Shown here piece after piece: positions 1 through 23,214 of a stretch of 24,232 bases of DNA; the first letter of the stretch is position 1; each line of letters begins with the position of its first letter. The stretch spans positions 1 to 24,232 of the IMG/VR virus record IMGVR_UViG_3300025138_012612; one strand, 5' to 3'. Origin of the DNA: a virus. Position numbers and translations under genes: made by a program. The notes below the pieces were generated by a model, which had not been told where the DNA came from, did no database searches, and was given only the letters and a program-made list of their open reading frames with translations.

Positions 1-227
1 AGGAAGCAGTAGAAATGCAAGCAGTGCCTGATACAGCTGGTACAAATTTAACCCATCCAGGTCATAACAAGGTTGGTAAGCTCAAAGCAAAAGGAAAGAA
101 AGCATCTGATTCAACTAAAAAGTATGTAGATGCTGAACCAAAACCATTAGCTGATGGAAAAGCAGCTCTTCAAAGCAAACAAAACAAAGTTCATAGTACA
201 GTTACCCAAGGTGACTTTATCCAATAA
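1..227 (+). CDS. C-terminal part of an unknown late-strand gene (5' end outside window)
   Basis: The frame is open from base 3 through the stop at 225-227, with no in-frame stop upstream, so this is probably the tail of a longer gene rather than a gene starting at the ATG at 15. The visible 70 or so residues are Lys/Ala/Gln-rich and hydrophilic, with no Cys and no membrane segment, and look low in complexity. I do not recognise a family. It ends 20 nt before a strong intrinsic terminator, so it is the last gene of a plus-strand transcription unit. The next genes include neck protein gp14, so a virion or head-assembly role is possible but is inference from position only. Confidence 0.6.
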   Translation, partial: EAVEMQAVPDTAGTNLTHPGHNKVGKLKAKGKKASDSTKKYVDAEPKPLADGKAALQSKQNKVHSTVTQGDFIQ

Positions 228-293: not shown

Positions 294-638
294 ATGATAA
301 AATTTCATAAGTTTTTTGAAAATAAATACCAAGGGACTAAACCCGGTATCAATCATAGACATAGAAGGGCTATACCGGGTAGTAGTGGGAATTCACGGTA
401 TTTACGTAAGCATGAAAATATTGTACCTGATTATGTAAAAGCTGATCCAACAAAAAATCAAGCAATTGAACAATTAAGGGGAAGTTCTGGTAAAAGGGTT
501 TGCAGCTCTTCAGAATTGGATTATATTAGAAAGGAATATAATGTGGTACCATATAAAGGTGAGATTAAAAAATTAGGTAGCACCGGTATAAAGTTATATT
601 TCGATGAAAAATTAAATAAATTTGTTTTAGAAAAATGA
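294..638 (+). CDS. Unknown 114-aa late protein before gp14
   Basis: Small basic protein (114 aa) that I do not recognise. It begins with MIKFHKFFEN, which loosely resembles the short aromatic/basic capsid-targeting starts of T4 internal proteins, but the F-F-E it contains is not a good prohead-protease site. The middle is rich in Arg, Gly and Ser and the C-terminal third looks folded. There is no membrane segment. The ATG sits 5 nt after a late-type box, and no Shine-Dalgarno sequence is visible. Its stop overlaps the gp14 start by 4 nt (ATGA), so the two are probably co-translated. It is too short to be gp13 (about 300 aa in T4). Confidence 0.75.
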   Translation: MIKFHKFFENKYQGTKPGINHRHRRAIPGSSGNSRYLRKHENIVPDYVKADPTKNQAIEQLRGSSGKRVCSSSELDYIRKEYNVVPYKGEIKKLGSTGIKLYFDEKLNKFVLEK

Positions 639-2429: not shown

Positions 2430-2791
2430 TAACTTTTTGTTATTAACGGTGTAGTCACTAGGGCAGTGCCAATACTAGTGGTAGCTCTTATTTCATTTTT
2501 ACAATCGCTGCAGCGATAGATAGTATCCTCAGTTAATGATAATATTACATCTTGTGTCGAACCGCACGGGCAACTGACTGTCATTGTATTATCGTATTTT
2601 GCTTTTTCTGATACAGCATTAATTTCAACAGCTCTTTTTATTAAAAAATTTTCATATATAGAATTAAAAAAATAAAAGAATAAAAATTGTAATATTGTAA
2701 CTAACCCAAACACTAACCAATCTCTAAAGAGTATACCAAATATACCACTAACTAAAAAAGTTAATGTTAACGACGTTATTAGTTTCTTCAT
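2429..2791 (-). CDS. Small membrane protein with zinc-ribbon-like domain
   Basis: A 120-aa protein with two hydrophobic segments near the N-terminus (about residues 5-22 and 26-44), predicted to be a membrane hairpin, followed by a soluble domain. That domain has paired cysteines, C74-P-C76-G and C94-S-D-C97, as in a zinc ribbon. The C-terminal 20 residues are Thr/Ser-rich. Start and stop codons overlap neighbours by one base on each side (TAATG). Its place in a late-promoter operon suggests expression during particle assembly or lysis. A holin-like role is conceivable from size and topology, but the zinc ribbon is not a holin hallmark, so I leave the function open. Confidence 0.72.
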   Translation of the reverse strand: MKKLITSLTLTFLVSGIFGILFRDWLVFGLVTILQFLFFYFFNSIYENFLIKRAVEINAVSEKAKYDNTMTVSCPCGSTQDVILSLTEDTIYRCSDCKNEIRATTSIGTALVTTPLITKS

Positions 2792-3171
2792 TACTTTATT
2801 TTACTAACCTTTTTACTAATATCAACCAATTTACCTTTTAATTTAACTATCTCTTTACCGACACTGTCTAATGATCTTTTATCTTTAATAACTGTGTTAG
2901 TATTTGCTATCTTTAATAACTCTTCTAAATTTTGTAAGGATACAAAAGTATTAGCAACTATGTCGTCAAATTCATTTAATGGGTATGGTACATTTTCTGG
3001 AGCTACATCACTTCGATTCTGTTTGTTCATTATATCTTGAACACTGGATGGCTGGGCAGGATACTCTGTTTTTTGACCGGGTTGGTCTCTTCCAACGTCG
3101 GGCATCATTTCTTGTCCAGCGTCTTCCTCAATTACTTTTACGAAGTCTTCAAATTTTTTGTATGATTGCAT
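2791..3171 (-). CDS. Unknown 126-aa late protein with possible capsid-targeting N-terminus
   Basis: First gene of the minus-strand late run. The N-terminus MQSYKKFEDFVKVIEEDAG resembles T4 capsid-targeting peptides, with a possible prohead-protease site I-E-E before Asp (after about residue 17). A Gln/Pro-rich linker follows (about residues 20-60), then a helical region rich in Leu, Lys and Val. It is divergent from the 138-aa gene at 3194, and both start at the two ends of one palindromic late promoter. Its ATG is 5 nt after the box. No family recognised; a head-internal protein is a reasonable guess. Confidence 0.7.
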   Translation of the reverse strand: MQSYKKFEDFVKVIEEDAGQEMMPDVGRDQPGQKTEYPAQPSSVQDIMNKQNRSDVAPENVPYPLNEFDDIVANTFVSLQNLEELLKIANTNTVIKDKRSLDSVGKEIVKLKGKLVDISKKVSKIK

Positions 3172-3184
3172 ATAAATATTTATA
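3171..3184. promoter_or_regulatory. Palindromic bidirectional late promoter
   Basis: TATAAATATTTATA is a perfect 14-bp palindrome carrying the T4 late box TATAAATA on both strands. Read on the minus strand, the box (3184 to 3177) ends exactly 5 nt before the ATG of the gene starting at 3171. On the plus strand, the box at 3171-3178 is followed by a second perfect box at 3181-3188. Confidence 0.8.
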
Positions 3185-3188
3185 AATA
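3181..3188 (+). promoter_or_regulatory. Late promoter box TATAAATA
   Basis: Perfect match to the T4 late consensus, ending 5 nt before the ATG at 3194. A second plus-strand copy lies 10 nt upstream (3171-3178), inside the palindrome. By T4 spacing, the start site would be at the ATG from this box, or about 10 nt upstream from the other. Confidence 0.82.
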
Positions 3189-3193
3189 ATAGT

Positions 3194-3610
3194 ATGACCT
3201 TATACCAAAAACGATTTAAAAAGTTTTTATCTGAACAAGATGATGAAAATACCGAGTTAACAGACCAAGAAGCAATGGCTTCTACGCTTGAACCTGAGAC
3301 CTCTCCAGAAGATTTCGATGTTGAAGCTCCTGCAGGGGGGGAAGGCGCAATCGGAGCTCAATCAAAACAAATGTTTGATGAGTTAAGTGGTTGGGTTTCT
3401 GAGATGGATAGATTTTCAGAATATTTAAACGGTACATCAGATAGTATTCAAACTTCATTAAATGCTGCAGAACCAGATACTATTTTTGATAGTATATCAA
3501 ATTCTGAAACAAAGAAAATTGCTAGAGTTGCAATGGAAATATCATCACTAAGTGAAATCTTAAAAGGTTACTTAGCAGGTGCTAATGATCCTAAGTATAA
3601 ATTTAACTAA
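3194..3610 (+). CDS. Predicted head-internal protein, 138 aa
   Basis: The N-terminus MTLYQKRFKKFLSEQ has the short aromatic/basic form of T4 internal-protein targeting peptides and an L-S-E site at residues 12-14 that fits the T4 prohead protease pattern (L/I-x-E before the cut). A second weaker candidate is D-V-E before Ala at about residue 44. Residues 15-55 are acidic and low in complexity; the rest is helical. No family recognised. It is driven by a perfect late box 5 nt before the ATG, with no Shine-Dalgarno visible. It heads a plus-strand block of five genes that share this type of N-terminus, so I infer packaging into the prohead core. Confidence 0.75.
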   Translation: MTLYQKRFKKFLSEQDDENTELTDQEAMASTLEPETSPEDFDVEAPAGGEGAIGAQSKQMFDELSGWVSEMDRFSEYLNGTSDSIQTSLNAAEPDTIFDSISNSETKKIARVAMEISSLSEILKGYLAGANDPKYKFN

Positions 3611-3614
3611 CTTT

Positions 3615-3622
3615 AATAAATA
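3615..3622 (+). promoter_or_regulatory. Late-type promoter box AATAAATA
   Basis: AATAAATA in the 17-nt gap between two genes, ending exactly 5 nt before the ATG at 3628. It differs from the T4 consensus only at the first base. It would give the short tandem genes at 3628-5037 their own late start. Confidence 0.7.
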
Positions 3623-3627
3623 ATAAT

Positions 3628-3882
3628 ATGCAAACAGATCAAGATTTAATTTTTGAAGCTTATACTCAATTTAACGATACACAAAGTGAAAATGAAGAAT
3701 CATCAGAAGGGGCTGTAAATTTACTAGAACAACTTAAAGAAGAAATGCCTGAATTGGAAGATAAGGTAAATCAAATACTTGGAAAGGTATTCGATGCTGT
3801 TGATGTATTAAAGCAAGAGTCTTATGTTGATGACCCTCAATTACAGGCAGCACACGAAGCCCTTATAGAAGGTAATTTTTAA
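3628..3882 (+). CDS. Predicted head-internal protein, 84 aa, leader-family copy 1
   Basis: Starts MQTDQDLIFEAYTQ, with I-F-E before Ala (cut after residue 10) as expected for a T4-type prohead protease site. The same leader opens the next two genes. The mature part is acidic and helical; the pattern LEQL...PELEDKVNQILGKVFDAV from about residue 33 matches the 89-aa neighbour in spacing of Leu, Pro-Glu-Leu and Ile-Leu, so the two are probably paralogues. A further L-I-E before Gly lies five residues from the C-terminus. The preceding late box is 5 nt from the ATG. Role inferred: small protein packaged in the head. Confidence 0.75.
   Translation: MQTDQDLIFEAYTQFNDTQSENEESSEGAVNLLEQLKEEMPELEDKVNQILGKVFDAVDVLKQESYVDDPQLQAAHEALIEGNF
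3631..3669 (+). repeat. Leader-encoding repeat, copy 1 of 3
   Basis: A 39-bp segment encoding QTDQDLIFEAYTQ. It is repeated with base changes at 3887-3925 and 4165-4200 (the latter slightly shorter in clear identity). The core codes for D-Q-x-L-I-F-E-A-Y-T in all three. Many differences are at third codon positions, pointing to old duplication with protein-level selection rather than a recent copy. Confidence 0.8.
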
Positions 3883-3883
3883 T

Positions 3884-4153
3884 ATGAAAACCGATCAAGA
3901 CTTAATTTTTGAAGCATATACTAAACCTAAGACTCTAGATGAAGATTTTGGTAATACAAACTATGACGTCGATGAACCTTCTTGTTTCGAAAGACTTGAA
4001 GAGCTTATGAATAGTAAGCCTGAACTAGCAAGTGTTTTGAAACCTATATTAGACGAAATGCAGGATGCTCTAATGGAAATTGATAAAATAGATATCAATA
4101 ATTTTGACGCACAAGAAGTTTTTAATAGTCTTAATAGATTATATCCATTTTAA
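3884..4153 (+). CDS. Predicted head-internal protein, 89 aa, leader-family copy 2
   Basis: Starts MKTDQDLIFEAYTK, with the same I-F-E before Ala site as the gene upstream. A second possible site, L-D-E before Asp, is at about residues 18-20. The helical body (LEELMNSKPELASVLKPILDEMQDAL) follows the spacing of the 84-aa protein, supporting tandem duplication. It starts 1 nt after the previous stop; a GAAGG about 11 nt upstream may act as a weak ribosome site, and coupling is likely. One Cys at about residue 34. No known family recognised. Confidence 0.74.
   Translation: MKTDQDLIFEAYTKPKTLDEDFGNTNYDVDEPSCFERLEELMNSKPELASVLKPILDEMQDALMEIDKIDINNFDAQEVFNSLNRLYPF
3887..3925 (+). repeat. Leader-encoding repeat, copy 2 of 3
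   Basis: Encodes KTDQDLIFEAYTK. It is nearly the same 39-bp module as at 3631-3669, with changes mostly at wobble positions. Confidence 0.8.
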
Positions 4154-4158
4154 TAATG

Positions 4159-5037
4159 ATGAATAAAGATCAAAATTTAATTTTCGAAGCTTATACCCAA
4201 ACTTTAACTGAAGGTTGGGAAGCTGGTACTTCTAAAGCTCCAAAAGGTAAATCATTTGATATGAAAAAAGGCGGTGCTCCAAGTAATGTAGACGCTGCAA
4301 GAGATGGTTCAGGTGGTAGATATAGAAAAACTCGCCCACCCAGTGCTCAATCTAATAAGACTCATAGTGAAAGTGAAGAATATGGTAATGATGAATTAAT
4401 GGTAAATGGTGTTGAATATATCGTACAAGCAGAAATATCAGGTGACAATGTTGAAATAACTACTCTATTTAAGTACGACGCAAAGCTTGATGATCATATT
4501 GAAGTAGATTTAGGCAGTATCTCACCACAATTGAGGCAAGATATTGAAGATTCTGTTAGAAACGATGTAGGTAGAGAGAATAACTTAGAGAATACCCCTC
4601 TAGAAGAACTTCAAGAATTAACACCTGAAGAGTACGAGATTGCTCAAACAATGGAAACTTTTGATGATGATGATTGGGGATATAATGAAATTCAAGAATT
4701 CTACTTTAGAAGAAGAGAAGGTGGCGAAGATAACGAAAGTAGAGAAAAAAGTATAATGAGAGGTAGAGAAGCTGCTAGTGCTGAGCAAGAAATATTTTAT
4801 AAAGAGCACGGTGCAGATGCATTTGAAGACCATTACGGGTTTGAATACCCTCAAGAAGAAGAATCTTTAGGCGATTCTTCTGATTTTGAATTCAAAGCTG
4901 AAAAGTTCGCTGATTCTATTGGAGATGCTGAGTTAGAATACTTAGTCAATCTAAGTGGAGGACAATTTGAGATATTAAAAGGATTTTTGCAAGATGAAAT
5001 GGGTTACCGTGATCTTGGTCAATATAAACGTAACTAA
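4159..5037 (+). CDS. Predicted head-internal protein, 292 aa, leader-family copy 3
   Basis: The frame has two consecutive ATGs (4156 and 4159). The second is chosen because it gives MNKDQNLIFEAYTQ, which aligns without a gap to the two upstream leaders, with I-F-E before Ala at residue 10. A second site, L-T-E before Gly, follows about ten residues later. The remainder is much longer than in the neighbours: a Gly/Lys/Ser-rich linker (about 20-65), a small domain with MVNGVEYIVQAEISGDNVEI (about 75-120), then a very acidic, Arg/Glu-rich helical region. No family recognised. It starts 5 nt after the upstream stop. Its leader on a different body is why I read this as a targeting tag. Confidence 0.75.
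   Translation: MNKDQNLIFEAYTQTLTEGWEAGTSKAPKGKSFDMKKGGAPSNVDAARDGSGGRYRKTRPPSAQSNKTHSESEEYGNDELMVNGVEYIVQAEISGDNVEITTLFKYDAKLDDHIEVDLGSISPQLRQDIEDSVRNDVGRENNLENTPLEELQELTPEEYEIAQTMETFDDDDWGYNEIQEFYFRRREGGEDNESREKSIMRGREAASAEQEIFYKEHGADAFEDHYGFEYPQEEESLGDSSDFEFKAEKFADSIGDAELEYLVNLSGGQFEILKGFLQDEMGYRDLGQYKRN
4165..4200 (+). repeat. Leader-encoding repeat, copy 3 of 3
   Basis: Encodes KDQNLIFEAYTQ. It matches the modules at 3631 and 3887, with D to N at the residue before Leu and several silent changes. Confidence 0.75.
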
Positions 5038-5045
5038 AATTTAAC

Positions 5046-5912
5046 ATGAGAACATTTCAAGAATTCCATAATGATAGACTTTTAAATGAATTGGCACCGC
5101 TTGCCTTACCAGCAGCAGGATGGCTAGCCGCATCCGCGAAGGTTAAAGTAGGCGCCGACCTAGCTATTGCATTTACAGCTGGGATCGCAGCTAAGTTAGG
5201 TATCGATTACTTTACATCTGATAATATTAGTACTGCATCAGATGCGATGGCAACCGGAACCCTACCTGAATTCGACGCATTCACACAAATCCCGGCTGGG
5301 CAGAGCGTGCTTAATGGCCCTGGTGATTGGATCACATCATTTGAAACTCCTATAACCACAGCAACTCCAGAACAAATTGTCGATGCTGTAGCACCTCATG
5401 TAACTAGTGCAGGTCAAGTTGCGGCTACCACTGAATCCGCAGCAGGTATCAGTAGTGCATTGGATATGCCGGGTAATTTGGTGTCATCAATTTTGACATA
5501 TGCTGCAGGAATAGGTCTTTCAACTCTTGATGTTTGTTTGATCTTAGGAGCTGGTACTGTTTTAGCTGCTGCAGGTGGTTTTATGTTTTTTAAAAACGAC
5601 GGACCAAATAAACTTAAAAATCTTCTTAATAAATTAAAAAATCTTCTTAAAAAGGCTTTAGAGAAGGCCATTAAGTTACTAAAGATAGCCGGTCGCGCGG
5701 CAATATATGCATTTATGTTTCTTGGTAAGGCATTACTTGACGCTTTAATGGCCGCTTTTGGATTTCTTGTCGGTTTATTAGGAGCAGGTTTAATGGCTAT
5801 AATTACCAAGGTAATTAGTAAGCTGAGAAATAAAGATAAGGAAAAAGATGAAGAAAAAGATGAGGAAAAAGATGAGGAAAGTAATATTTTAGATGGATCG
5901 AGTTCTAAATAA
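5046..5912 (+). CDS. Predicted packaged membrane-active protein, 288 aa
   Basis: The N-terminus MRTFQEFHNDRLLNEL closely resembles the T4 internal-protein start MKTYQEF, with an L-N-E site (cut after residue 15). After it come hydrophobic stretches at about 16-30 and 36-50, a long one at 145-182, a cationic amphipathic helix at 186-214 with two KLKNLL heptads, two more hydrophobic segments at about 213-258, and a charged tail of KDEE repeats. A protein made for the head yet with several membrane segments suggests ejection and insertion into the host membrane, but this is inference. G+C is clearly raised in the 5' part: 36 of 60 bases at 5101-5160, unlike its neighbours, hinting at separate origin. 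It starts 8 nt after the previous stop, with no promoter of its own seen. Confidence 0.72.
   Translation: MRTFQEFHNDRLLNELAPLALPAAGWLAASAKVKVGADLAIAFTAGIAAKLGIDYFTSDNISTASDAMATGTLPEFDAFTQIPAGQSVLNGPGDWITSFETPITTATPEQIVDAVAPHVTSAGQVAATTESAAGISSALDMPGNLVSSILTYAAGIGLSTLDVCLILGAGTVLAAAGGFMFFKNDGPNKLKNLLNKLKNLLKKALEKAIKLLKIAGRAAIYAFMFLGKALLDALMAAFGFLVGLLGAGLMAIITKVISKLRNKDKEKDEEKDEEKDEESNILDGSSSK
5610..5651 (+). repeat. Two tandem 21-bp heptad-coding repeats
   Basis: Units 5610-5630 and 5631-5651 encode KLKNLLN and KLKNLLK (residues 189-202). They form the start of a positively charged amphipathic helix. The DNA copies differ at only a few bases. Confidence 0.8.
5841..5876 (+). repeat. Three 12-bp tandem repeats coding EKDE
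   Basis: Units GAAAAAGATGAA, GAAAAAGATGAG and GAAAAAGATGAG at 5841-5852, 5853-5864 and 5865-5876 encode an acidic/basic tail after the last hydrophobic segment. Such a repeat is prone to change in copy number. Confidence 0.85.
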
Positions 5913-8119: not shown

Positions 8120-8369
8120 TCTTTTTGTATTGGGATTCTATAACTTTATACACATACTTCGGTATTTTTTCAACAAATTTAATTATTTCCTTTTCTAAAC
8201 CGGCTTCAAAATCTTTTTGAGGTATTTTAGTCGTAATCATTTCAGGCATCCTAAGAAAATTATACGTCTGTTCCTTTTTATCACGGCGAATAAATGCAAA
8301 TAACTGACCAGCATATTCACCATGGTGGCATGCATACATGTTTCCAACTTTTATCTTAGTTTTATCCAT
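8091..8369 (-). CDS. Unknown 92-aa protein
   Basis: Small basic protein starting MDKTKIKVGNMYACHHGEYAG, with a beta-rich N-terminal half (VGNMYAC, QLFAFIRRD, YNFLRMPEM) and a Lys-rich helical C-terminal half ending NNRRK. I do not recognise it. It overlaps the end of rmlB by 8 nt and the start of the nuclease gene by 29 nt, so it sits inside one operon. The charged tail suggests nucleic-acid or protein contact, but that is a guess. Confidence 0.7.
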   Translation of the reverse strand: MDKTKIKVGNMYACHHGEYAGQLFAFIRRDKKEQTYNFLRMPEMITTKIPQKDFEAGLEKEIIKFVEKIPKYVYKVIESQYKKNENTNNRRK

Positions 8370-9315
8370 AAATTTTCACTAATTCTTTTAATTGCTCGTC
8401 GAAATCATTGTATAATGGTTCATATAGCAAGTCTTTTTTGATTTTATTACAATTAATACTATATCTAAAGTCATGACCGAGCCTATCTTCAACAAAAATA
8501 ACGTTTTTATCTAGATCTTTCCCCATAATTGTACATATTTTATCAACTAATTCAATATTTGTTAGTTCTAACCCTGATCCGATGTTATAAACTTCATTTT
8601 TACCTTGAGTACCAACGGCCCAGACTGCTAAATTGTGATCATGCACATGTACCCACTCGCGAACGTTTAAACCCTCACCATATATTGGTACTTTCTTACC
8701 TTCACTCAAGGATTTTATGATTGTTGGTATAAATTTTTCATTATGCTGATTAGGACCATAGTTATTACAACATCTCGTTATACTTATGTTACAATTAAAC
8801 GTTTCAATATATGACATACATAAGAGATCGCTTGATGCCTTACTTGCAGCATAGGGAGAACGAGGTGCAATAGGGGTTAACTCAGTAAATGATGGATCAT
8901 TGAACCCTAGATGTCCGTAAACCTCATCTGTACTAATATGTACAAATCTACCGTAATTATTATTAATTTTACGGAAACATTCTAACATATTTTGAGTACC
9001 TAGTACATTTGATTCAATAAAAACTTTTGGACCACTAATACTGTTATCAACATGTGATTCTGCTGCAAAATGGAAAATATAATCAAACTTATCATTAGTT
9101 AAGAAAACATTTTCCAACTCTAATGTATTTACAATGTCTAATTTATACTCTTTATCACATAAACCCTTAACATAATCTTTATTTGATGCATAACCATCTT
9201 TGTCTACACATGTTATTCTATGTTGAGGGAAGTTATCTCGTAGGAATCGTATAAAATTACCACCTATGAATCCGTAACCCCCGGTTACTAATATATTTTT
9301 ACTTTCTTTTTGCAT
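8362..9315 (-). CDS. rmlB: dTDP-glucose 4,6-dehydratase (RmlB)
   Basis: Extended short-chain dehydrogenase that converts dTDP-glucose to dTDP-4-keto-6-deoxyglucose, the entry step to rhamnose and other deoxy sugars. It is 317 aa, typical for the family. Motifs: NAD-binding TGGYGFIG (11-18), FHFAAESHVDNSI (81-93), STDEVYG (128-134) with the family's T-D-E catalytic triad, and Y155-AAS-K159. A further family signature, NNYGPNQ, follows, with EKFIPT and NVREWVHVHDH after it. It overlaps the cytidylyltransferase upstream by 17 nt. RmlA and RmlC are not in the window, so the final sugar is unknown. Confidence 0.92.
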   Translation of the reverse strand: MQKESKNILVTGGYGFIGGNFIRFLRDNFPQHRITCVDKDGYASNKDYVKGLCDKEYKLDIVNTLELENVFLTNDKFDYIFHFAAESHVDNSISGPKVFIESNVLGTQNMLECFRKINNNYGRFVHISTDEVYGHLGFNDPSFTELTPIAPRSPYAASKASSDLLCMSYIETFNCNISITRCCNNYGPNQHNEKFIPTIIKSLSEGKKVPIYGEGLNVREWVHVHDHNLAVWAVGTQGKNEVYNIGSGLELTNIELVDKICTIMGKDLDKNVIFVEDRLGHDFRYSINCNKIKKDLLYEPLYNDFDEQLKELVKIYG

Positions 9316-9748
9316 TTTTTATAATATCTGGATTTTGCTTTATCGTCTGAGTCGTTATTAGATCTTTTATTTTGGTTGTAGACCATTCATGAGATCTAGT
9401 TGTATATATAACTTTACCAGGTAAATCATCACCAGTAAATCGTTTACCAATATAATCTTCACCTAATATTCTTATATCCGGTTTGAAGAATTTAATTAAT
9501 TCTATTAATTCTTCTTCAGTTTGATACATATACACATCATCAACATACTGAATAGCCATTAAAGTCTTATATCTTTCATAATAAGGTATAACAGGTTTAT
9601 ATTTTGTATATCTTGTAGCTGAAGGATCTTTCTGCAAGAACACTAAAAATCTATCACAGTGTCTTTTAGCTTCTTCAAAAGTATATATGTAACCGGGATG
9701 TAATAAATCAAAGTTACCAGCTGTAAAACCTACTAATTCTTTTTCCAT
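9299..9748 (-). CDS. Nucleotidyltransferase-like protein with altered HxGH motif
   Basis: Small (149 aa) member of the cytidylyltransferase fold, the family of glycerol-3-phosphate cytidylyltransferase and heptose-phosphate adenylyltransferase. GNFDLLHPGYIYTFEEAK (11-28) is the nucleotide-binding start; the normal HxGH reads H17-P-G-Y20 here, so the second His is Tyr. The C-terminal RSHEWSTTKIKDLI matches the family's S-T-T-x-I element. The start has a clear ribosome site (AAAGGA about 6-8 nt upstream). It lies between RmlD-like and RmlB genes, so I infer activation of a sugar or polyol phosphate, with catalytic competence uncertain because of the Tyr. Confidence 0.8.
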   Translation of the reverse strand: MEKELVGFTAGNFDLLHPGYIYTFEEAKRHCDRFLVFLQKDPSATRYTKYKPVIPYYERYKTLMAIQYVDDVYMYQTEEELIELIKFFKPDIRILGEDYIGKRFTGDDLPGKVIYTTRSHEWSTTKIKDLITTQTIKQNPDIIKNAKRK

Positions 9749-10605
9749 TTTAATTCCTTTCCAATTAAAGAGGCATTTAATCTCAAATAATGTTCTTCAT
9801 CACCAAAGTCGAAATTAAAATCATCTTTAGCTTTTTGATTAGATAATACACAATTACTTCTATTACATTTTATTTTTAATTCATCATAAGGTATAAACTT
9901 CCAATCATCATTTTTAATACCATACTCTTTTAAAATATCAGTAACTTCTTTAGTACCTAATGAGCTATGATGAACTGCATTATATATACCAGCTTTAAAA
10001 TTTTTCATTACAGTTTCAATAAATTCACATAGAACTACCATATCTGTTTTACTATTAACAAAATCAATTAAATTAGGGTAATTGATAAGTTTAGTTAATA
10101 GATTTTTCTTAGTTAATTTACTTTCGATTGGCATTCTAATTCTAATAATATTGGTAAAATTAGTATCAAGTATTAGTTCAGATATATGTTTTGTTTTACT
10201 ATAGAAACTTGATTGCTTTTCAAACACTCCAAAGTTTGGTATATCGTCTTCTGTATACTCTTTATCATAACCCCCATATATACAACCAGAACCTATATGG
10301 ATAAAATTCATGTCTAAAGATTTACAAATACCTTCAATAGCTACCGGTACGTTTACATTATAATAAAAACAATCTTCTTTATTATCTTCACAACCATCTA
10401 CATTAGGTACACCCGTATAACCTGATGTATTAATAACCGTGTCAATATCTTCAGATAGACAAAAGTTATATAATACTTCCGAGTTAGTGTAATCTAAATC
10501 TTTTTTAGACTTAAAAAATATATTATTATCTGGTAGCCAATGCTCAGATAAATATTTTTCTAGATGATTACCCACGTAACCCTTACCGAGAATTAAAACG
10601 TTCAT
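9733..10605 (-). CDS. NAD(P)-dependent sugar reductase/epimerase, RmlD-like
   Basis: Short-chain dehydrogenase fold, 290 aa. Dinucleotide-binding LILGKGYVGNHL (G7, G9, G12), then DTVINTSGYTG at about 55-65, GSGCIYGG around 105-112 and the catalytic YSKTK (Y135, K139). Overall layout is that of dTDP-4-keto-rhamnose reductase (RmlD) and related nucleotide-sugar epimerases; the exact substrate cannot be read. First gene of an operon that continues through a nucleotidyltransferase, RmlB, an unknown gene and the FEN nuclease. A sigma70-like promoter sits directly before its ATG. Confidence 0.82.
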   Translation of the reverse strand: MNVLILGKGYVGNHLEKYLSEHWLPDNNIFFKSKKDLDYTNSEVLYNFCLSEDIDTVINTSGYTGVPNVDGCEDNKEDCFYYNVNVPVAIEGICKSLDMNFIHIGSGCIYGGYDKEYTEDDIPNFGVFEKQSSFYSKTKHISELILDTNFTNIIRIRMPIESKLTKKNLLTKLINYPNLIDFVNSKTDMVVLCEFIETVMKNFKAGIYNAVHHSSLGTKEVTDILKEYGIKNDDWKFIPYDELKIKCNRSNCVLSNQKAKDDFNFDFGDEEHYLRLNASLIGKELKWKKN

Positions 10606-16936: not shown

Positions 16937-18277
16937 TTAATTACTCAACATGTCAAGGGTATTGGTTAAATCAGACATTTCGCTTCCTTCATTATCAACG
17001 TTTAACGTCTCATCTTCAGAAATAGTCAAAGTATCATAATCTAACCGTAATGCCGTCTGCCCATAATTAGCACCATATCTATTTTTCATCATACCCATTT
17101 TAACTATACCTAATTCTTTATCTTCATCATCTTGAAAGATACTAAAAATACAGTCAGCAGTAGCGGCCATTCCAATAGATTCTGATATTGTATCTAAACC
17201 AGGGTTCGCTTCGTCATAACCAGATCTATTTAACTGAGTAGCAGAAATAAACGGGCATTCAAAAACATAACTTAAAGCACGAATACCTTCAGCAACATGC
17301 TTAACTCTTTCATAAGAATTATCACCAAGAGGACTCTTCAACAAATTTAAGTAATCAAGTACTACCGCGTCAACTTTAATACCTCTGTTTTTTAATTCTG
17401 TAATATAACCTTGTATATTCTGAGGCGTAACAGTACTAGGAGGAAACTCTTTAATTAAAATCTTACTATTAGGTTTACCATTATTATAACTCTTTATTTG
17501 AGCTGATAAAGATTGACCAGCTCCTTTCAATTCTCTCATCGGTATTCTAGTTATATTAGATGATAACCTTCTTGCATATATCATCTCTGACATTTCAAGA
17601 CTTATAACTAAAACTGTCTTACCTTTAGAAGCTATATTACAAGCTATATTACCTAAAAATATAGATTTACCAACATTAGCTTCCCCAGCAAATACATACA
17701 ACGATCTACCATTTTGTAAGAAACCACCGTCTATTTTATCATCTAACCATTTCCAACCAGAAGATATTGTAGGTTGGTCTACATTTAGATCATCTACAAC
17801 CTTATCAATATTTTCAAATAAATCTAAACCTATCTCTTCCTTTAAATTAACGTTACAGCTTTTTTCAAAACTATCTAAAATAAAACTTGTATTAACTTCA
17901 CCTTTACTAACATCCTCAGCAACAGATAACATTGTATTGTATATTGCTCTTTCTTTTAAGAACCGTTCAGTATTAGAAGTTAACTCTTCATCATTAAAGT
18001 TCTTATCAATATTAGGAAAATTCTTTACAACTGATCTAAAACTTTCCTTTAGTTCATCATTAATTAAGTATGACTTTAATTCAGTAATAGTAGGTATACT
18101 CTGCCTCTTAATATAGAAATTAGTTATTAAACCGAAAACAGTCTTAATATTTTTATCATTAAAGTAATCCGGCTTTATATGGTCTATAATTTGAGTTAGA
18201 TAACTTTCGTTAGTCAAACTCTTATAAACTATAACCTGCTCATAATAATCTAAATTTAATCTACCTATATCTTCCAT
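16937..18277 (-). CDS. 41: Replicative helicase, T4 gp41 type
   Basis: DnaB-family 5'-3' helicase that unwinds the fork and works with primase gp61. It is 446 aa (T4 gp41 is 475). An N-terminal helical domain is followed by the RecA-like core: Walker A GEANVGKS (198-205), SLEMSEMIYARRL, Walker B VVLDYLNLL (about 306-314), then SATQLNRSG with the sensor-like Gln, and an Arg-containing KNRYGANYG. The acidic C-terminus may interact with partners. The start overlaps the cupin's stop by one base (TAATG), so it is the first replication gene after a run of sugar-related genes in the same operon. Confidence 0.93.
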   Translation of the reverse strand: MEDIGRLNLDYYEQVIVYKSLTNESYLTQIIDHIKPDYFNDKNIKTVFGLITNFYIKRQSIPTITELKSYLINDELKESFRSVVKNFPNIDKNFNDEELTSNTERFLKERAIYNTMLSVAEDVSKGEVNTSFILDSFEKSCNVNLKEEIGLDLFENIDKVVDDLNVDQPTISSGWKWLDDKIDGGFLQNGRSLYVFAGEANVGKSIFLGNIACNIASKGKTVLVISLEMSEMIYARRLSSNITRIPMRELKGAGQSLSAQIKSYNNGKPNSKILIKEFPPSTVTPQNIQGYITELKNRGIKVDAVVLDYLNLLKSPLGDNSYERVKHVAEGIRALSYVFECPFISATQLNRSGYDEANPGLDTISESIGMAATADCIFSIFQDDEDKELGIVKMGMMKNRYGANYGQTALRLDYDTLTISEDETLNVDNEGSEMSDLTNTLDMLSN

Positions 18278-18588
18278 TATCTTCTTTCAATATCTTGTTC
18301 AATACATTCTTTACCATATTGTATTTCACAAACAATACATTCACTATTACTAATATTAGCTGGTTTATGCCAATTCTCAACTGGTATATCAATTATATTA
18401 TTTTTATAATAAAGTTTACCATTAACAGATAGTTCTCCTTCTAATACAAACCAATGTTCACTTCTTTTAAAATGACGTTGATCACTTAATGATTCACCTG
18501 GGTTAATATGCAAAGTTTTTATTTTATAACCATTACGTTCAAATAAAACATTATAGCTACCCCAGTTCGTTTTAGTTATTTTTCCCAT
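18277..18588 (-). CDS. Cupin, mannose-6-phosphate isomerase type II C-terminal-like
   Basis: Single-domain cupin (103 aa from this start). The motif PGESLSDQRHFKRSEHWFVLEGE is the metal-site region typical of type II phosphomannose isomerase/GDP-mannose pyrophosphorylase C-terminal domains (P-G-x-x-L-S-x-Q-x-H-x-x-R-x-E-H-W). A second cupin motif, PVENWHKPAN, follows. ATG at 18588 is chosen over a TTG at 18603. Free-standing cupins of this kind can isomerise mannose/fructose phosphates or epimerise sugars; the substrate is not readable. It overlaps the upstream nucleotidyltransferase by 13 nt and gp41 by one base. Confidence 0.82.
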   Translation of the reverse strand: MGKITKTNWGSYNVLFERNGYKIKTLHINPGESLSDQRHFKRSEHWFVLEGELSVNGKLYYKNNIIDIPVENWHKPANISNSECIVCEIQYGKECIEQDIERR

Positions 18589-19013
18589 CTTTGCAATATC
18601 CAACTGCTACTATTTTTTTTATCTGCTCCACCAACCCCATATTGAAAAATAATTTCTTTATCGTCAAATAACCCAGGAGCCTCTTCCGGAACATTACCTT
18701 GTTTTCTATCTCCTCCATTAGCAAATATGATTCTATTAAAGGGGAATAGCATTATAACATTTCTTATAGCTTCAATTGCAGTACCATCGTCATCATTAAA
18801 GAGAATGCAGTTATCAACGTATTTTAATGCTGATACTATTTCGAACCTTTCTGATAAAGATAAAAAGTTTTTACCTTTTTTTTGTTCTAACCAAGAGTCA
18901 GAGTTAACACCTACAATTAATTTATCACCAAGCTTTCGAGCTGCTTTAAGATATGCTAAATGACCTGAATGTAGTGGGTCAAATCCTCCTGTAACTAATA
19001 CTACCGTTTCCAT
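18576..19013 (-). CDS. Cytidylyltransferase-family nucleotidyltransferase
   Basis: 145 aa protein of the family that includes glycerol-3-phosphate cytidylyltransferase and the heptose adenylyltransferase domain of HldE (RfaE). VTGGFDPLHSGHLAYLKAARKLGD (7-30) has the intact HxGH (H15-S-G-H18) and nucleotide-binding Gly residues; LSLSERFEIVSALKYVD and ANGGDRKQGN follow as in the family. The C-terminus is shorter than in HldE but keeps a S-S-S-W element. It lies between a glycosyltransferase-like gene and the cupin. Reaction inferred: activation of a sugar or polyol phosphate with CTP or ATP. Confidence 0.85.
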   Translation of the reverse strand: METVVLVTGGFDPLHSGHLAYLKAARKLGDKLIVGVNSDSWLEQKKGKNFLSLSERFEIVSALKYVDNCILFNDDDGTAIEAIRNVIMLFPFNRIIFANGGDRKQGNVPEEAPGLFDDKEIIFQYGVGGADKKNSSSWILQRWEK

Positions 19014-19657
19014 TTTTTAATAAAGTATTCTTGCCCTTTATAAAACTCTTGGTTAGGGTTTGTTAAACCTGGACTTGAATGAATTATTGGAATATCAACT
19101 ACACCAATTGTAACGTTATTTTTATTACATTCTAAACTAAAATCTAAATCATAGTAATGAAACTTAGATGGGTAAGATTCATCAAATTTTACATTAGTAG
19201 GTAAATTTTGTATATTAATACCGATAAAGACGCCATCAATAACCAAAACACGACCTGGAATAGGGCCAAACGAAGTATACTGATATTGGTTAGAATGTCC
19301 GTGAGCAACATTTCCTCTTTGGTCTTTCCTCTCGGACATAAGATGCCATAAAGCAGGTTCTTTAACCTTACACGTACTAGCCCCTGCGAGACCAAAAACT
19401 GTATACATTTTACCATAATTGTCCAACCTATGCAACAAATCCCCGCAATTGATAAAAACATCATCATGGATAAACATACAGATATCAATGTTATTAGTAC
19501 GAGCGTCTTCCAAAAAGTTGTTATAGCAACTTTGCAAACTTTTAGTATTTTTTTCTTCATAATGTACAGGTAAATCACGATATTTTATATTAAGTGATTT
19601 ATATAGTAAGGTGTCTTCTTTTTTACCTTTAGTAGCTGTGTAAATTTTATATTTCAT
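19001..19657 (-). CDS. Glycosyltransferase-like protein (GT-A type)
   Basis: Phage-type putative glycosyltransferase, 218 aa from the ATG at 19657 (a second ATG at 19672 would overlap the previous gene by 26 nt). MKYKIYTATKG begins the fold, CMFIHDDVFINCGDLL carries the H-D-D acidic motif expected at the nucleotide-sugar/metal site, then SFGPIPGRVLVIDGVFIGI and KFHYYDLDFSLEC, a motif seen in family-2-like transferases. The acceptor is unknown; surface sugar or a modified DNA base are both possible. It overlaps the next gene by 13 nt and belongs to the amidotransferase-gp59 operon. Confidence 0.75.
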   Translation of the reverse strand: MKYKIYTATKGKKEDTLLYKSLNIKYRDLPVHYEEKNTKSLQSCYNNFLEDARTNNIDICMFIHDDVFINCGDLLHRLDNYGKMYTVFGLAGASTCKVKEPALWHLMSERKDQRGNVAHGHSNQYQYTSFGPIPGRVLVIDGVFIGINIQNLPTNVKFDESYPSKFHYYDLDFSLECNKNNVTIGVVDIPIIHSSPGLTNPNQEFYKGQEYFIKKWKR

Positions 19658-19988
19658 ATTCTTTTCTATCATCCATTTCTGGTTTATGATCTCTATTCCA
19701 TATCATACCCATAATATTCCATAAAGCAGCACTTAAATGATCTTCACTATCATCTCCGGTAAAGTCTTGCATTAAATGTCTCATAGTACTATCATATAAA
19801 ACTGAATGCTTCATGCCTTTCTTCCAATTATTCTCACCATAGGTATCAGCTCCTTGAATATACCTCAACATTACACCGTTTAAAGCTGCATGAGGTACTA
19901 AACTCATTCTTAGTTTATTATCAGCATTATCTCGTTGTGCGCCAGTATCAAACTGACGAGGTTTACCAGTTGTCTTCAGTTTACTCAT
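19647..19988 (-). CDS. dATP/dGTP diphosphohydrolase-like protein
   Basis: 113 aa protein resembling the phage dATP/dGTP diphosphohydrolase family (MazG/MazZ-related; DUF5664-like). Visible pattern: KLRMSLVPHAALNGVMLRYI, then GADTYGENNWKKG, DSTMRHLMQDFTGDDSEDHLSAALWNIMGM, giving the acidic/His helical metal site. ATG at 19988 is chosen over TTG at 19991 and overlaps the previous stop by 8 nt (ATGAGTAA). It would hydrolyse dNTPs and shift the pool, relevant for modified-base phages and for replication in general. Activity and substrate are not proven by the sequence. Confidence 0.7.
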   Translation of the reverse strand: MSKLKTTGKPRQFDTGAQRDNADNKLRMSLVPHAALNGVMLRYIQGADTYGENNWKKGMKHSVLYDSTMRHLMQDFTGDDSEDHLSAALWNIMGMIWNRDHKPEMDDRKEYEI

Positions 19989-20454
19989 CAATAATATTAT
20001 AAATAGGTTCCTTAAAAATTACATCTTGTGAATTGAAATCGTTATCCTCGGTGATATAGTTATTACCTAACCATTTTTTATAAAAAATAGCCCCGTCACT
20101 TTTTACATCTGAATTCACATAATAAAATTTAATATTATCCTTATGTTTATATAACGCATTTTTAATTAATAATTTAGCGAGTCCGTTACCTCTATTATAT
20201 TTTGATGTAACTATATAATACGTTTTTAATGTATTTTCTGCTTTAGTATTAACTGTATATGCATGTAAACCTAGTACTTTACCACTGTCATCTGTACAAA
20301 CCTCTATAGGGTATTCCTCCCACCAATTTCTACTTGACCAAGTATGGCCAAATGTGTTTAAAATATAGGAATCGGTGTTATCGTAGATAAATTTTATAAA
20401 TCTTAACTTATCTACTTCACCCAATTCACTAACCGTAACGTAATTTATATTCAT
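19981..20454 (-). CDS. GNAT-family acetyltransferase
   Basis: 157 aa GNAT N-acetyltransferase. YYIVTSKYNRGNGLAKLLIKNAL contains the acetyl-CoA pyrophosphate-binding R-G-N-G (R88-G91) after the beta-4 strand, and FYYVNSDVKSDGAIFYKKW matches the beta-5/alpha-4 part with a Tyr. The acceptor could be a sugar amine, a protein or a small molecule. Its start overlaps the amidotransferase stop by 4 nt (ATGA). The pairing with a glutamine amidotransferase suggests amine formation followed by acetylation, but this is only context. Confidence 0.8.
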   Translation of the reverse strand: MNINYVTVSELGEVDKLRFIKFIYDNTDSYILNTFGHTWSSRNWWEEYPIEVCTDDSGKVLGLHAYTVNTKAENTLKTYYIVTSKYNRGNGLAKLLIKNALYKHKDNIKFYYVNSDVKSDGAIFYKKWLGNNYITEDNDFNSQDVIFKEPIYNIIDE

Positions 20455-21122
20455 AATGTTAAAAATGGGCTATCATATACAAAGCTATCTATTTCAGTTA
20501 GACCTTCATATGAAAAATTATAAAGTATACCTTGGCTTATCTCTTTATAATCACAACCTCTAATAGATGATATATTACTATCTTTGTAAAACAATGTACT
20601 ACCTTGTCTTGCTATGTATATATTCATTGTTTTAATGTTAACTATCCATAAAGCAAATGTACCTTTAAGTTTTTCAATAGTATACAATATATTTTGTACT
20701 TCTGTTTCAGCATCTTCACAAGGACCGTGAGTATACTCAAATTCATCTAATAATGCTGGTATTATACTACTATCTACAGGGTTATCATGCATTGGTATAA
20801 ACTCATCAATTAATTCATTAGAATTAGTTAATACCCCATTATGAGCTACTATCCAATCACCTACCCAAAATGGATGAGACGTTTCCTCTTGCCAACCTCT
20901 ACCGGTTTCAGTAGGAGCCTGATTATGACCCAAATATAAATGTCCTTTTTGATGTGGTATTTTTGTCTTATTCCAGTTTATATTACCTTTTTCTTGGATT
21001 ATATTATAATTAGCTTTATTATAACAATAAAATATACCAGTAGAAAAATTACCACGTTTTCTATTAGCTTCCTCTAATATTTCAAATGTACTTAAATCAT
21101 TGCTACAATATATACCACACAT
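20451..21122 (-). CDS. Class II glutamine amidotransferase (stand-alone)
   Basis: Ntn-type glutaminase domain, 223 aa. The ATG at 21122 is chosen because it puts the catalytic Cys at position 2 (MCGIY), as this family needs; an ATG 36 nt further up would lie inside or before the promoter and bury the Cys. LGHNQAPTETG (64-74), VAHNGVL (92-98) and NPVDSS (D117) give the oxyanion and glutamine-binding elements. There is no synthetase or isomerase domain, so ammonia must go to a separate partner. With QueC about 1.3 kb away, a role in 7-deazaguanine amidation is possible; sugar amination is the alternative. Confidence 0.85.
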   Translation of the reverse strand: MCGIYCSNDLSTFEILEEANRKRGNFSTGIFYCYNKANYNIIQEKGNINWNKTKIPHQKGHLYLGHNQAPTETGRGWQEETSHPFWVGDWIVAHNGVLTNSNELIDEFIPMHDNPVDSSIIPALLDEFEYTHGPCEDAETEVQNILYTIEKLKGTFALWIVNIKTMNIYIARQGSTLFYKDSNISSIRGCDYKEISQGILYNFSYEGLTEIDSFVYDSPFLTL

Positions 21123-21129
21123 ATAATAT

Positions 21130-21158
21130 ATTATAGTATAAAACTTAACAATAATCAA
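21130..21158 (-). promoter_or_regulatory. Sigma70-like promoter for the amidotransferase-gp59 operon
   Basis: On the minus strand, TTGATT (21158-21153), 17-nt spacer, perfect TATAAT (21135-21130), then seven bases and the ATG at 21122. It is divergent from, and its -35 overlaps, the plus-strand late-type box at 21157-21164. Confidence 0.75.
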
Positions 21159-21164
21159 TAAATA
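21157..21164 (+). promoter_or_regulatory. Late-type promoter box AATAAATA
   Basis: AATAAATA ends exactly 5 nt before the ATG at 21170. Same octamer and spacing as at 3615. It shares two bases with the -35 of the divergent sigma70-like promoter. Confidence 0.72.
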
Positions 21165-21169
21165 TTATT

Positions 21170-22468
21170 ATGAATTTACATAACTGGGGTAACAAAAAAA
21201 TTATTAACGAAAGTGCTTCTCAATATATGCAAGGTATGCATGAAGGGGACGATGATTTGGTCCAAGAAGCAAGAGGTAAGAAAATTGCTGATCCGTTAAG
21301 AGCAAAACTAATGGGTATGGAAGATATTAGAGATCTTAAAGGTACAATGACCCCTAGATACTTTGCTACCAAGGTAATTAGATACTTACAAAAAGAAAAT
21401 CCTGAATTAGATTTAGAAGATTTAACTGATGATAATATTCAAAATGCTATTAATATTATGGCCAATGTTTCTAAACCATTAGCTACAAGACCAGATGTTC
21501 AAATTACAACAAGAGCAAGAGGCGCAGCAAAAGAAGGTCTTAAGAAAGGTGATACAGGTTTTGAAACTTTACAATTAAATCTTGGAGGGGATACCACCTT
21601 AAAATCTGAAGGTGGTGTTGGTGAAAATGATTTATATACAGTAGTAAGCGATGGTTTAAAATATAGAGTTACTCTTAATTCTTTTAAAGGTCAAAAACTT
21701 AATTTAGATGATATATCTAAAGATGATATTGTTTCAGTTGTTATTGTTAAACCAAGTGAAACAGAAAAAGTTGATAAATTTGGTGGAGAAATAGAAATGG
21801 GTAATAGAGAAAAATTAGTTGCTGATTTTCCAGAAGGTGAAGAAGATGGTATGTCAAATGCAATCGACGCTGTTAGTTATATGAGCCGTCAAGATGGTGT
21901 TGGTGTTCCAGAAGGTGAAGAAATTGATAAAGAAAAATCAGATTTAAATGATGATGGTGAGATTTCTTCATATGAAAGATCAAGAGGGGTAGCTATTGCT
22001 AAAGCAATGAAGAAAGAGCAAGAAAGGGCTGGTCAATCTCATGCAAGAGCAGTTGCAGATCATTATGGAGATGAAGACGCACCTGCAGAAGATAATATAT
22101 TACCTCTTATAGGAACTGGGCTTGCAGTCGGGGCAGCTGGTGCTGTTGGTAGTAAATTAGCGAAAATGGTTTTACCTAAAGATGAAATCATCGTCAAAAA
22201 AGGAGATGACGAAGATGATAATGATCAATATGAACCTGATGAAGCACCAGAAGATGATCAAATGGGTGGAATGGAACCTTTAGATGATGAAGATGAAGAA
22301 AGATGCCCAGTAACAGGTAAGCTTAGAAAAAAGAAACCGTCAGAATCTGAAGAAGAAGAGCAAGTTGCAATGTCTCAACAAGATATTAATAACTACTTGA
22401 TCAATCAACACAGGCAAAAAATGCAAAATGCTCATTCTCAAGAAAGAATGAATAGACACGGTTATTAA
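21170..22468 (+). CDS. Predicted head-internal protein, 432 aa, with EF-hand loop
   Basis: The N-terminus MNLHNWGNKKIINESASQ resembles a capsid-targeting peptide with I-N-E before Ser (cut after residue 14); V-Q-E before Ala at 31-33 is a second possible site. Residues 40-110 are helical, followed by a mixed domain to about 210. DLNDDGEISSYE (258-269) is a textbook 12-residue EF-hand calcium loop. NILPLIGTGLAVGAAGAVGSKL (309-330) is a glycine-rich hydrophobic stretch, and the rest is strongly acidic with Gln/Asn/His-rich end. It is a lone late gene with its own promoter between two minus-strand operons. It shares TTAA with the QueC stop. Confidence 0.75.
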   Translation: MNLHNWGNKKIINESASQYMQGMHEGDDDLVQEARGKKIADPLRAKLMGMEDIRDLKGTMTPRYFATKVIRYLQKENPELDLEDLTDDNIQNAINIMANVSKPLATRPDVQITTRARGAAKEGLKKGDTGFETLQLNLGGDTTLKSEGGVGENDLYTVVSDGLKYRVTLNSFKGQKLNLDDISKDDIVSVVIVKPSETEKVDKFGGEIEMGNREKLVADFPEGEEDGMSNAIDAVSYMSRQDGVGVPEGEEIDKEKSDLNDDGEISSYERSRGVAIAKAMKKEQERAGQSHARAVADHYGDEDAPAEDNILPLIGTGLAVGAAGAVGSKLAKMVLPKDEIIVKKGDDEDDNDQYEPDEAPEDDQMGGMEPLDDEDEERCPVTGKLRKKKPSESEEEEQVAMSQQDINNYLINQHRQKMQNAHSQERMNRHGY

Positions 22469-23214
22469 TATATTATAGATTTACAATTATTATCTCTATA
22501 AACCGAATCTAACTTATCTTGCTGTTTATAACGTAACGGATCTTGTAATCCTGCGTCTAAAAAACCTTTCAACCTAAGAGCACTACTTGCACTATTAGCA
22601 TCACATGGATATTCACCAGAATAACATGTATATGTATCAGTAAAATTGACTCCAAGCTCAACACCATTTAAAATAATCTCTTTTTTACTCATCTTAAGAA
22701 GAGGAGCTCTTACCCTTACATCTACTTCACGGTTTAATAGACAAATCTGATTCATTTTATCTACAAATTGCACTGAACCATCCCAATAACCAGCAAGACT
22801 ATCAGCTTCTGCTGCACCATACCATACTTCCTCAGCTTCCATTTTTTCTGCATATGATAACAATATGCTTAAAAACATTAAATTACGGAATGGTACATAT
22901 GATTTAGGTTGAGCCTCACCCATTATATCTTTTACGTCAGGTGTATCTATATTATCATTAGTAAGAGAAGATGTATCAGCTATATCCTTAATATAAGTAA
23001 CATCTAATAATTTATTAGTAAACTTAACATTTGTATAATTAAATTTAGCGTTAGCTAATTGCTTTTCAGCTGCTTCTAACTCTTTACTATGACGTTGACC
23101 GTAATTAAATGTTACAGTATGCACTTCATTATACTGTTCGGCTGCCTTATAGAGTAAAACAGATGAATCCATTCCACCAGATAAGGTTATAACTATTTTA
23201 TTCTTCTTCTTCAT
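22465..23214 (-). CDS. queC: 7-cyano-7-deazaguanine synthase (QueC)
   Basis: ATP-dependent enzyme that turns 7-carboxy-7-deazaguanine into preQ0, the precursor of queuosine, archaeosine and 7-deazaguanine DNA bases. It is 249 aa, near the usual length. PP-loop SGGMDSS (12-18), FNYGQRH (36-42), YVPFRN (106-111) and TYTCYSG (195-200) with LRLKGF (213-218) are family marks. Of the four zinc-binding cysteines usual in QueC, C197 and C204 are present; the C-x-x-C-x-x-C run here reads CDANSAS, with Asn and Ser at the last two places. It overlaps UvsX by 17 nt. Neither QueD, QueE nor FolE is in the window. Confidence 0.93.
   Translation of the reverse strand: MKKKNKIVITLSGGMDSSVLLYKAAEQYNEVHTVTFNYGQRHSKELEAAEKQLANAKFNYTNVKFTNKLLDVTYIKDIADTSSLTNDNIDTPDVKDIMGEAQPKSYVPFRNLMFLSILLSYAEKMEAEEVWYGAAEADSLAGYWDGSVQFVDKMNQICLLNREVDVRVRAPLLKMSKKEIILNGVELGVNFTDTYTCYSGEYPCDANSASSALRLKGFLDAGLQDPLRYKQQDKLDSVYRDNNCKSIIY

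Follow-up and report, generated by a model that had tools for sequence, protein, structure and literature searches.

A protease-type N-terminal leader shared by unrelated proteins of uncultured T4-like phages, and its probable role as a capsid-targeting tag

Introduction

Why do consecutive genes of an uncultured phage, whose products range from 84 to 292 amino acids (aa), begin with similar short leaders? The question arises at positions 3194-5912 of the complete 24,232-base IMG/VR record IMGVR_UViG_3300025138_012612, the whole of which we call the window (G000), where each leader closes in a hydrophobic-x-E site. A sequence-only reading of the window had taken these leaders for cleavable capsid-targeting peptides, a modular tag for loading unrelated cargo into the head. 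It had compared them with the T4 start MKTYQEFIAEA, which is indeed how the T4 internal proteins IPII and IPIII begin, and had assigned the sites FLSE, LIFE (three times) and LLNE to the cassette and VIEE and IINE to two genes outside it. All seven sites lie where it placed them, with coordinates and peptides as described.

In T4, the prohead protease gp21 cleaves after L/I-x-E, IPIII needs no more than its first 10 residues to be targeted to the head, and the capsid-targeting sequence (CTS) has been proposed as an evolutionary device to pack varied proteins (PMC9026906). Mature IPI begins at residue 20, after ITE-19 (PDB 2JUB). From the sequence evidence set out below, we consider it probable that the leaders of the window and its relatives are capsid-targeting propeptides working as they do in T4, cut by a gp21-type protease so that the bodies are freed in the head.

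Results

A leader found at protein starts far beyond chance

Taken bare, a hydrophobic-x-E is uninformative, because 107 of the 233 genes of a 185-kb relative, G001, carry [LIVMF]-x-E within their first 32 residues, and we rejected the bare L/I-x-E as evidence on that count. An all-against-all comparison of N-termini in G001 was also discarded, its signal being too weak and coming mostly from Rossmann-type starts. The LIFE leader has a more specific consensus, M-x-x-D-x-x-L-I-F-E-[A/N]-Y (a LIFE-type segment with L7, I8 and Y12 is MKTDQDLIFEAYTK), in which F9 and Y12 are strictly conserved. A scan of IMG/VR for D-Q-x-L-I-[FY]-E-A-Y found 34 stretches, while a wider, ATG-anchored pattern (M-x-x-D-x-x-L-I-F-E-x-Y) found at least 120, with at least 112 distinct leader proteins of 60 aa or more among them; the bodies of the 112 listed fall into about 28 clusters (blastp, E 1e-3). 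Across 20 records there were 34 matches to the core pattern and none to its reversal. In 257 Gb of bacterial and archaeal genomes a slightly stricter pattern had three matches, all inside longer reading frames and none at a protein start.

We also searched a hidden Markov model (HMM) of the 14-residue leader against all called proteins of 13 uncultured-phage proteomes or contigs (G000-G007, G010, G020, G022, G023 and G025) plus T4, with gene starts taken from a simple gene caller. The best 40 hits were all N-terminal, and the first internal hit scored 4.8 bits. Because the training leaders had been chosen by pattern, the conservation that the model shows at patterned positions is circular, which does not apply to placement at the protein start or to the unpatterned features. 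The LIFE leader is a real module, far beyond chance, in uncultured T4-like phages, and it has the layout of a T4-type CTS, a short (about 10-20 aa) N-terminal leader on proteins with differing bodies. No earlier description of it was found in the open-access literature, most subscription papers being outside that search.

Site chemistry and a second site

As far as sequence can tell, the leader is closed by an L/I-x-E prohead-protease site, as in a T4-type CTS. Among proteome-wide hits not forced by the pattern, P2 varies (LIFE, LIAE, LLFE, LVFE, LMFE, LIME, LISE, LLNE) and the Glu is constant, a combination that fits the gp21 rule L/I-x-E/ (the slash here and below marks the predicted cut). 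Orthologues of the proteins with FLSE, VIEE and IINE sites likewise keep hydrophobic-x-E while x varies.

Of 110 leader proteins, 89 have a second L/I/V-x-E at residues 15-27, compared with 32 ± 4.5 after shuffling of that stretch and with 11-38 matches in stretches further along the same proteins; the residue after it (P1') is most commonly Ala. In the commonest family (A1, 46 sequences) the second-site E21 is invariant, and a structure model of moderate confidence (mean pLDDT 69, about 54 in the leader region) places a leader helix at residues 6-15, E21 in coil and the start of the fold at residue 24. Given this strong enrichment and the precedent of T4 IPI, cut at ITE-19, LIFE need not be the final cut, which may instead fall at the second site. 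The sequence-only claim of L/I-x-E sites survives as one of protease-type sites conserved in orthologues; it loses the bare motif, which is weak, and the assumption that LIFE is the last cut.

Family A1 is also the commonest leader body, of about 300 aa (for example at L120 97-1005), and is conserved across many uncultured T4-like phages. It has no Pfam or PHROGs match, and its best hit in a PDB fold search had E 0.19.

Candidate cargo bodies are fused, split and swapped

The cassette spans the interval from a conserved 138-aa gene to the primase gene, and its gene set differs among close relatives, with four genes in the window and in G007, two each in G003, G005 and G006, and one each in G001, G002, G004 and G010. 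The 292-aa protein of the window is made of two modules (residues 1-79 and 143-292); G003 encodes them in separate genes, as proteins of 120 and 171 aa that match at 81% and 80% identity and have a LIFEAY leader apiece. As a C-terminal module, the body of the 89-aa protein recurs in a 211-aa protein of G006 and in a fused 162-aa protein of G005, of which the 84-aa protein forms the N-terminal half; a 208-aa protein of G007 has its C-terminal module in common with the 432-aa gene of the window. Through all this fusing, splitting and swapping each product keeps exactly one N-terminal leader, which is what would be expected of a tag. Thus the proposal of a modular leader on different bodies is upheld by the number of body clusters, by the confinement of the leader to N-termini and by shuffled modules that each carry it. 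The accompanying claim that the bodies are unrelated is partly true: the 84-aa and 89-aa bodies are paralogous, and some bodies share modules.

Another locus behaves similarly. At the site of the window's 432-aa gene, which is flanked by queC-like and amidotransferase genes, sister phages hold a 300-aa protein with a LIFEAY leader, and no homology was found between the 432-aa and 300-aa bodies. In the window (20451-23214) and at the same locus in G020, G022, G023 and G025 there is always one leader-bearing gene, on the opposite strand. This spot is a putative cargo slot in which body and leader type vary by lineage.

Two further sets of genes were noted in relatives. At 83528-90776 of L053 (G001), small genes, often lysine-rich, cluster together and show another style of leader (MKFDDLFEFYVNEA, MTFDKLYSSLMEA, MINFKQHHKVLLEF and MKKFLKAYNNILEQ); nearer to the basic internal proteins of T4, this could be the main internal-protein locus. 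Its 88-aa basic protein (90510-90776, minus strand) contains a 39-residue stretch 56% identical to gp23 just after the cleavage site (E 1.7e-7), and may be a small protein derived from that of the capsid. Two loci, G001 102300-103667 and L156 2420-3727 (both minus strand), encode leader proteins of 435-455 aa with LIFENY, and the L156 protein matches a glycine zipper weakly (E 0.0019). Taken with the Ala/Gly-rich 288-aa protein of the window, these offer hints of a membrane-active ejected cargo.

Prohead protease, head proteins and late promoters

The sequence-only reading had called for a search for a gp21-type protease elsewhere in the genome. One (PF03420) is present in G001 and G003, close relatives whose UvsX is 97-100% identical to that of the window (97% for G001), and it is through these relatives that the protease is assigned to the same phage. 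PF03420 also occurs in 15 of 20 further leader-bearing records and in every leader-bearing record of at least 130 kb (11/11); a T4-type gp41 or gp23 is encoded in 15 of another 20 records, which are shorter or protease-negative. In leader-bearing genomes, alignment with T4 places the gp23 maturation sites at WCLNE/AGP, WCLRE/AGP, KWCFE/AS and KYCFE/S, the gp22 site at ILSE/A and the gp21 site at LIVE/T; all three proteins are known substrates of gp21 in T4. CFE/A of gp23 and IFE/A of the leader are identical at P2-P1', and the chemistry of the leader site matches that of the gp23 maturation sites of the same phages.

Late expression is indicated by divergent T4-type promoter boxes (TATAAATA) between the 126-aa (VIEE) and 138-aa (FLSE) genes, at 3171-3178 and 3181-3188 on the plus strand and 3177-3184 on the minus strand; three of only four such boxes in the window fall within 3171-3188. 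Among 113 leader genes, 95 have the T4 late box core, TAAATA, no more than 45 nt upstream, most often at -11 to -16, compared with 18% after shuffling. At 3171-3188, as in front of many leader genes, the gap between the box and the ATG is frequently no more than about 5-10 nt, and good Shine-Dalgarno sequences are scarce, which suggests very short or leaderless late mRNAs.

Alternative explanations

Conserved upstream TAAATA boxes, and leader DNA that is near-identical among the three LIFE copies of the window, could mean that the repeated N-terminus works as DNA (as a promoter, a ribosome-binding site or a recombination site) and is translated only incidentally. Codon choice at L7-Y12, however, is no different from the background of those genes, which puts the selection on the peptide and not on the DNA; we rejected this explanation as scarcely credible. 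Common ancestry of the ordinary kind, through tandem duplication of one family, would explain the paralogous 84-aa and 89-aa proteins. It does not explain 28 body clusters at E 1e-3, a 292-aa gene equivalent to two G003 genes that each have their own leader, or a single locus carrying unrelated bodies with different leaders, and we consider it highly improbable.

Two other explanations accept the leader as a peptide signal. It might stay on the protein, docking it to a virion structure (head core, neck or tail), with L/I-x-E reflecting helix chemistry. The predicted helix at residues 6-15, the position of the LIFE Glu within an IFEAY stretch and the existence of two window-type proteins (84 and 90-92 aa) without a second site are all compatible with such a dock, but P2 is free to vary where the P1 Glu is constant, an independent second site has Ala at P1', and the site chemistry is that of gp23 in the same phages; an uncleaved dock is unlikely. 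Alternatively, the leader could be an early host-takeover tag sending proteins elsewhere (host membrane, protease or chaperone), as its shortness, its partly hydrophobic character and the membrane-like 288-aa body would allow. Against this, late-promoter boxes lie immediately upstream, the leader is confined to T4-like phages with gp21, and the core genes gp21, gp22 and gp23 carry the same site chemistry, making a takeover tag very unlikely.

Leader-bearing genes of the window

The core gene of the locus encodes an acidic 138-aa protein (3194-3610, plus strand) with leader MTLYQKRFKKFLSE/Q at 3194-3235; it has orthologues in 12 other genomes, and 40%-identical homologues carry VLE/A or ILE/A in place of FLSE. 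Three acidic cargo candidates follow on the same strand. The 84-aa protein (3628-3882; MQTDQDLIFE/AY at 3628-3657; HMM 26.7 bits) has no clear second site and is preceded by TAAATA at 3617-3622. The 89-aa protein (3884-4153; MKTDQDLIFE/AY at 3884-3913; 29.3 bits) has its second site, LDE/D, at 3935-3943. The 292-aa protein (4159-5037; MNKDQNLIFE/AY at 4159-4188) has LTE/G at 4204-4212, and an alternative ATG 3 nt upstream would give 293 aa. Last comes the hydrophobic, Ala/Gly-rich 288-aa protein with an acidic tail (5046-5912, plus strand; MRTFQEFHNDRLLNE/LAP at 5046-5090, site LLNE). Its start, MRTFQEF, resembles T4 IPI (MKTFKEF) and IPIII (MKTYQEF), but a homologue search turned up none, and it is the least supported member, placed here by resemblance.

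Outside the cassette, the sequence-only reading had picked out the 126-aa and 432-aa genes as further members, and the sites of both are kept in orthologues. For the 126-aa protein (2791-3171, minus strand; MQSYKKFEDFVKVIEE/D, leader codons 3124-3171, site VIEE), eight orthologues have [IL]-x-E with E, Q, G or K as x and an invariant E16, and distant homologues start ILFE/D or LLFE/E. The 432-aa protein (21170-22468, plus strand; MNLHNWGNKKIINE/S at 21170-21211, site IINE) has a second site, VQE/A, at 21260-21268; in seven orthologues E14 and E33 are invariant with P2 variable, IINE becoming I-[NTV]-E. Its AlphaFold model (pLDDT 41.5) was too low in confidence for use. At the left edge (3-227, plus strand) lies the C-terminal end of a protein of about 296 aa whose N-terminus is outside the contig; in relatives it starts M(S/T)RxNTLTEIWNTYNNxILSE, with I-[LI]-[SN]-E kept and [IL]-[SN]-E invariant in orthologues. 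A 114-aa protein starting MIKFHKFFE/N (294-638, plus strand), in whose orthologues F-[FY]-E is kept, is a possible further member on weak evidence.

The phage and its relatives

The window belongs to a T4-superfamily phage. UvsX stands at its right end (closest isolate UvsX about 30-33% identical), and it encodes a 446-aa gp41-type helicase, a primase and a gp14-type neck protein (PHROG head closure Hc2); window and relatives together have T4-type UvsX, gp41, gp23 and gp21. Pfam and PHROGs gave no convincing match for any leader protein of the window, and neither did tblastn against isolate phages for the 292-aa protein, the 89-aa protein or the 300-aa family. The exact leader is absent from T4, syn9, HTVC008M, Cr30, S-SSM7 and RM378, the sole near match, in S-SSM7, being internal to a very large open reading frame. 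Genes for an NDP-sugar dehydratase/epimerase, a nucleotidyltransferase and cupin-like proteins lie among the replication genes at 8362-10605 and 18277-19672, with a probable role in surface or DNA sugar metabolism.

Discussion

Returning to capsid targeting, we infer docking, sufficiency of the tag, cleavage, packaging, ejection and a cargo role as its steps. A short, amphipathic N-terminal segment (D-x-x-L-I-F-E-x-Y or a variant) would dock the protein to the assembling prohead core; a gp21-type protease would cut after hydrophobic-x-E, at LIFE and/or at the second L/I/V-x-E 8-17 residues later; and the freed body would stay inside the head, to be delivered along with the DNA. If the tag alone is sufficient, cargo bodies could be exchanged freely, which would account for a hypervariable cassette. 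The sequence-only reading of function is plausible and partly supported.

Several observations pull the other way. The leader HMM misses the T4 CTSs (the best T4 hit is internal, at 2.9 bits), so kinship with them is suggested by layout and core (LI-x-E-A), a resemblance by eye (MKT-Q--I-EA; MRTFQEF) and not by statistics. The bodies here are acidic (net charge -11 to -36), whereas T4 internal proteins are basic (PMC9026906), and D4 stands where T4 IPIII has Tyr4, reported to be important for targeting. Searches including Pfam and PHROGs found no cargo with a known head function, and no Pfam or PHROGs match pointed to homology of the bodies with IPI-IPIII, the small, basic internal proteins of T4. 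The 24-kb window itself has no gp21, the fragment ending before the protease gene. No cultured relative was found, megablast of the window against isolate phages giving no convincing match.

The principle is known from T4; the LIFE tag sequence and its wide reuse were not. We put at about even the chances of a broader proposition, that in a large uncultured T4-like branch a single conserved N-terminal tag, released by protease in two steps, serves as a general cargo code, with dozens of unrelated, mostly acidic proteins swapped, fused and split in hot spots as fast-evolving injected sets, plausibly directed against first-line host defences. An anti-defence role is plausible because T4 IPI blocks GmrSD and IPIII is required on one E. 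coli strain (PMC9391042). If the tag works as proposed, the first 20 residues would suffice to tell which proteins uncultured T4-like phages pack and inject, and the cassette would be a list of candidate anti-defence proteins, since an action against host defences is known or proposed for the packaged T4 proteins IPI and IPIII. As short tags, the leaders could also serve to load proteins into phage heads, and the cassette would allow a clean test of the spread of a cargo signal among unrelated genes.

Among known systems, the giant phages phiKZ, 201phi2-1 and SPN3US also have many virion proteins cut after a short Glu-ending motif by a gp21-like protease, and SPN3US gp53 and gp54 are diverged paralogues with identical N-termini (PMC5694885). 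Their propeptides, however, mostly exceed 100 residues and have other motifs (S/A-x-E), and no short tag common to unrelated bodies is described for them. In P1 DarB an N-terminal signal is sufficient to put a reporter into the phage head (PMC9024508), but this is a single protein, and the Dar N-termini have no consensus. The closest likeness is to the gp21-processed CTSs of T4 (IPI, IPII, IPIII and Alt), with a short N-terminal leader, different bodies, a variable cargo set, a gp21-type protease in the genome and a cut, predicted for the leaders here, at residue 10, or at 19 in IPI. The core [LF]-I-x-E-A is common to both, so that MKTYQEFIAE/A of IPIII aligns ungapped with MKTDQDLIFE/A here, and gp22 has MLKEQLIAE/A. 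What sets the leaders of the window and its relatives apart from those of T4 is a new invariant D-x-x-LIFE-x-Y, usually two tandem sites, and dozens of body families with module shuffling.

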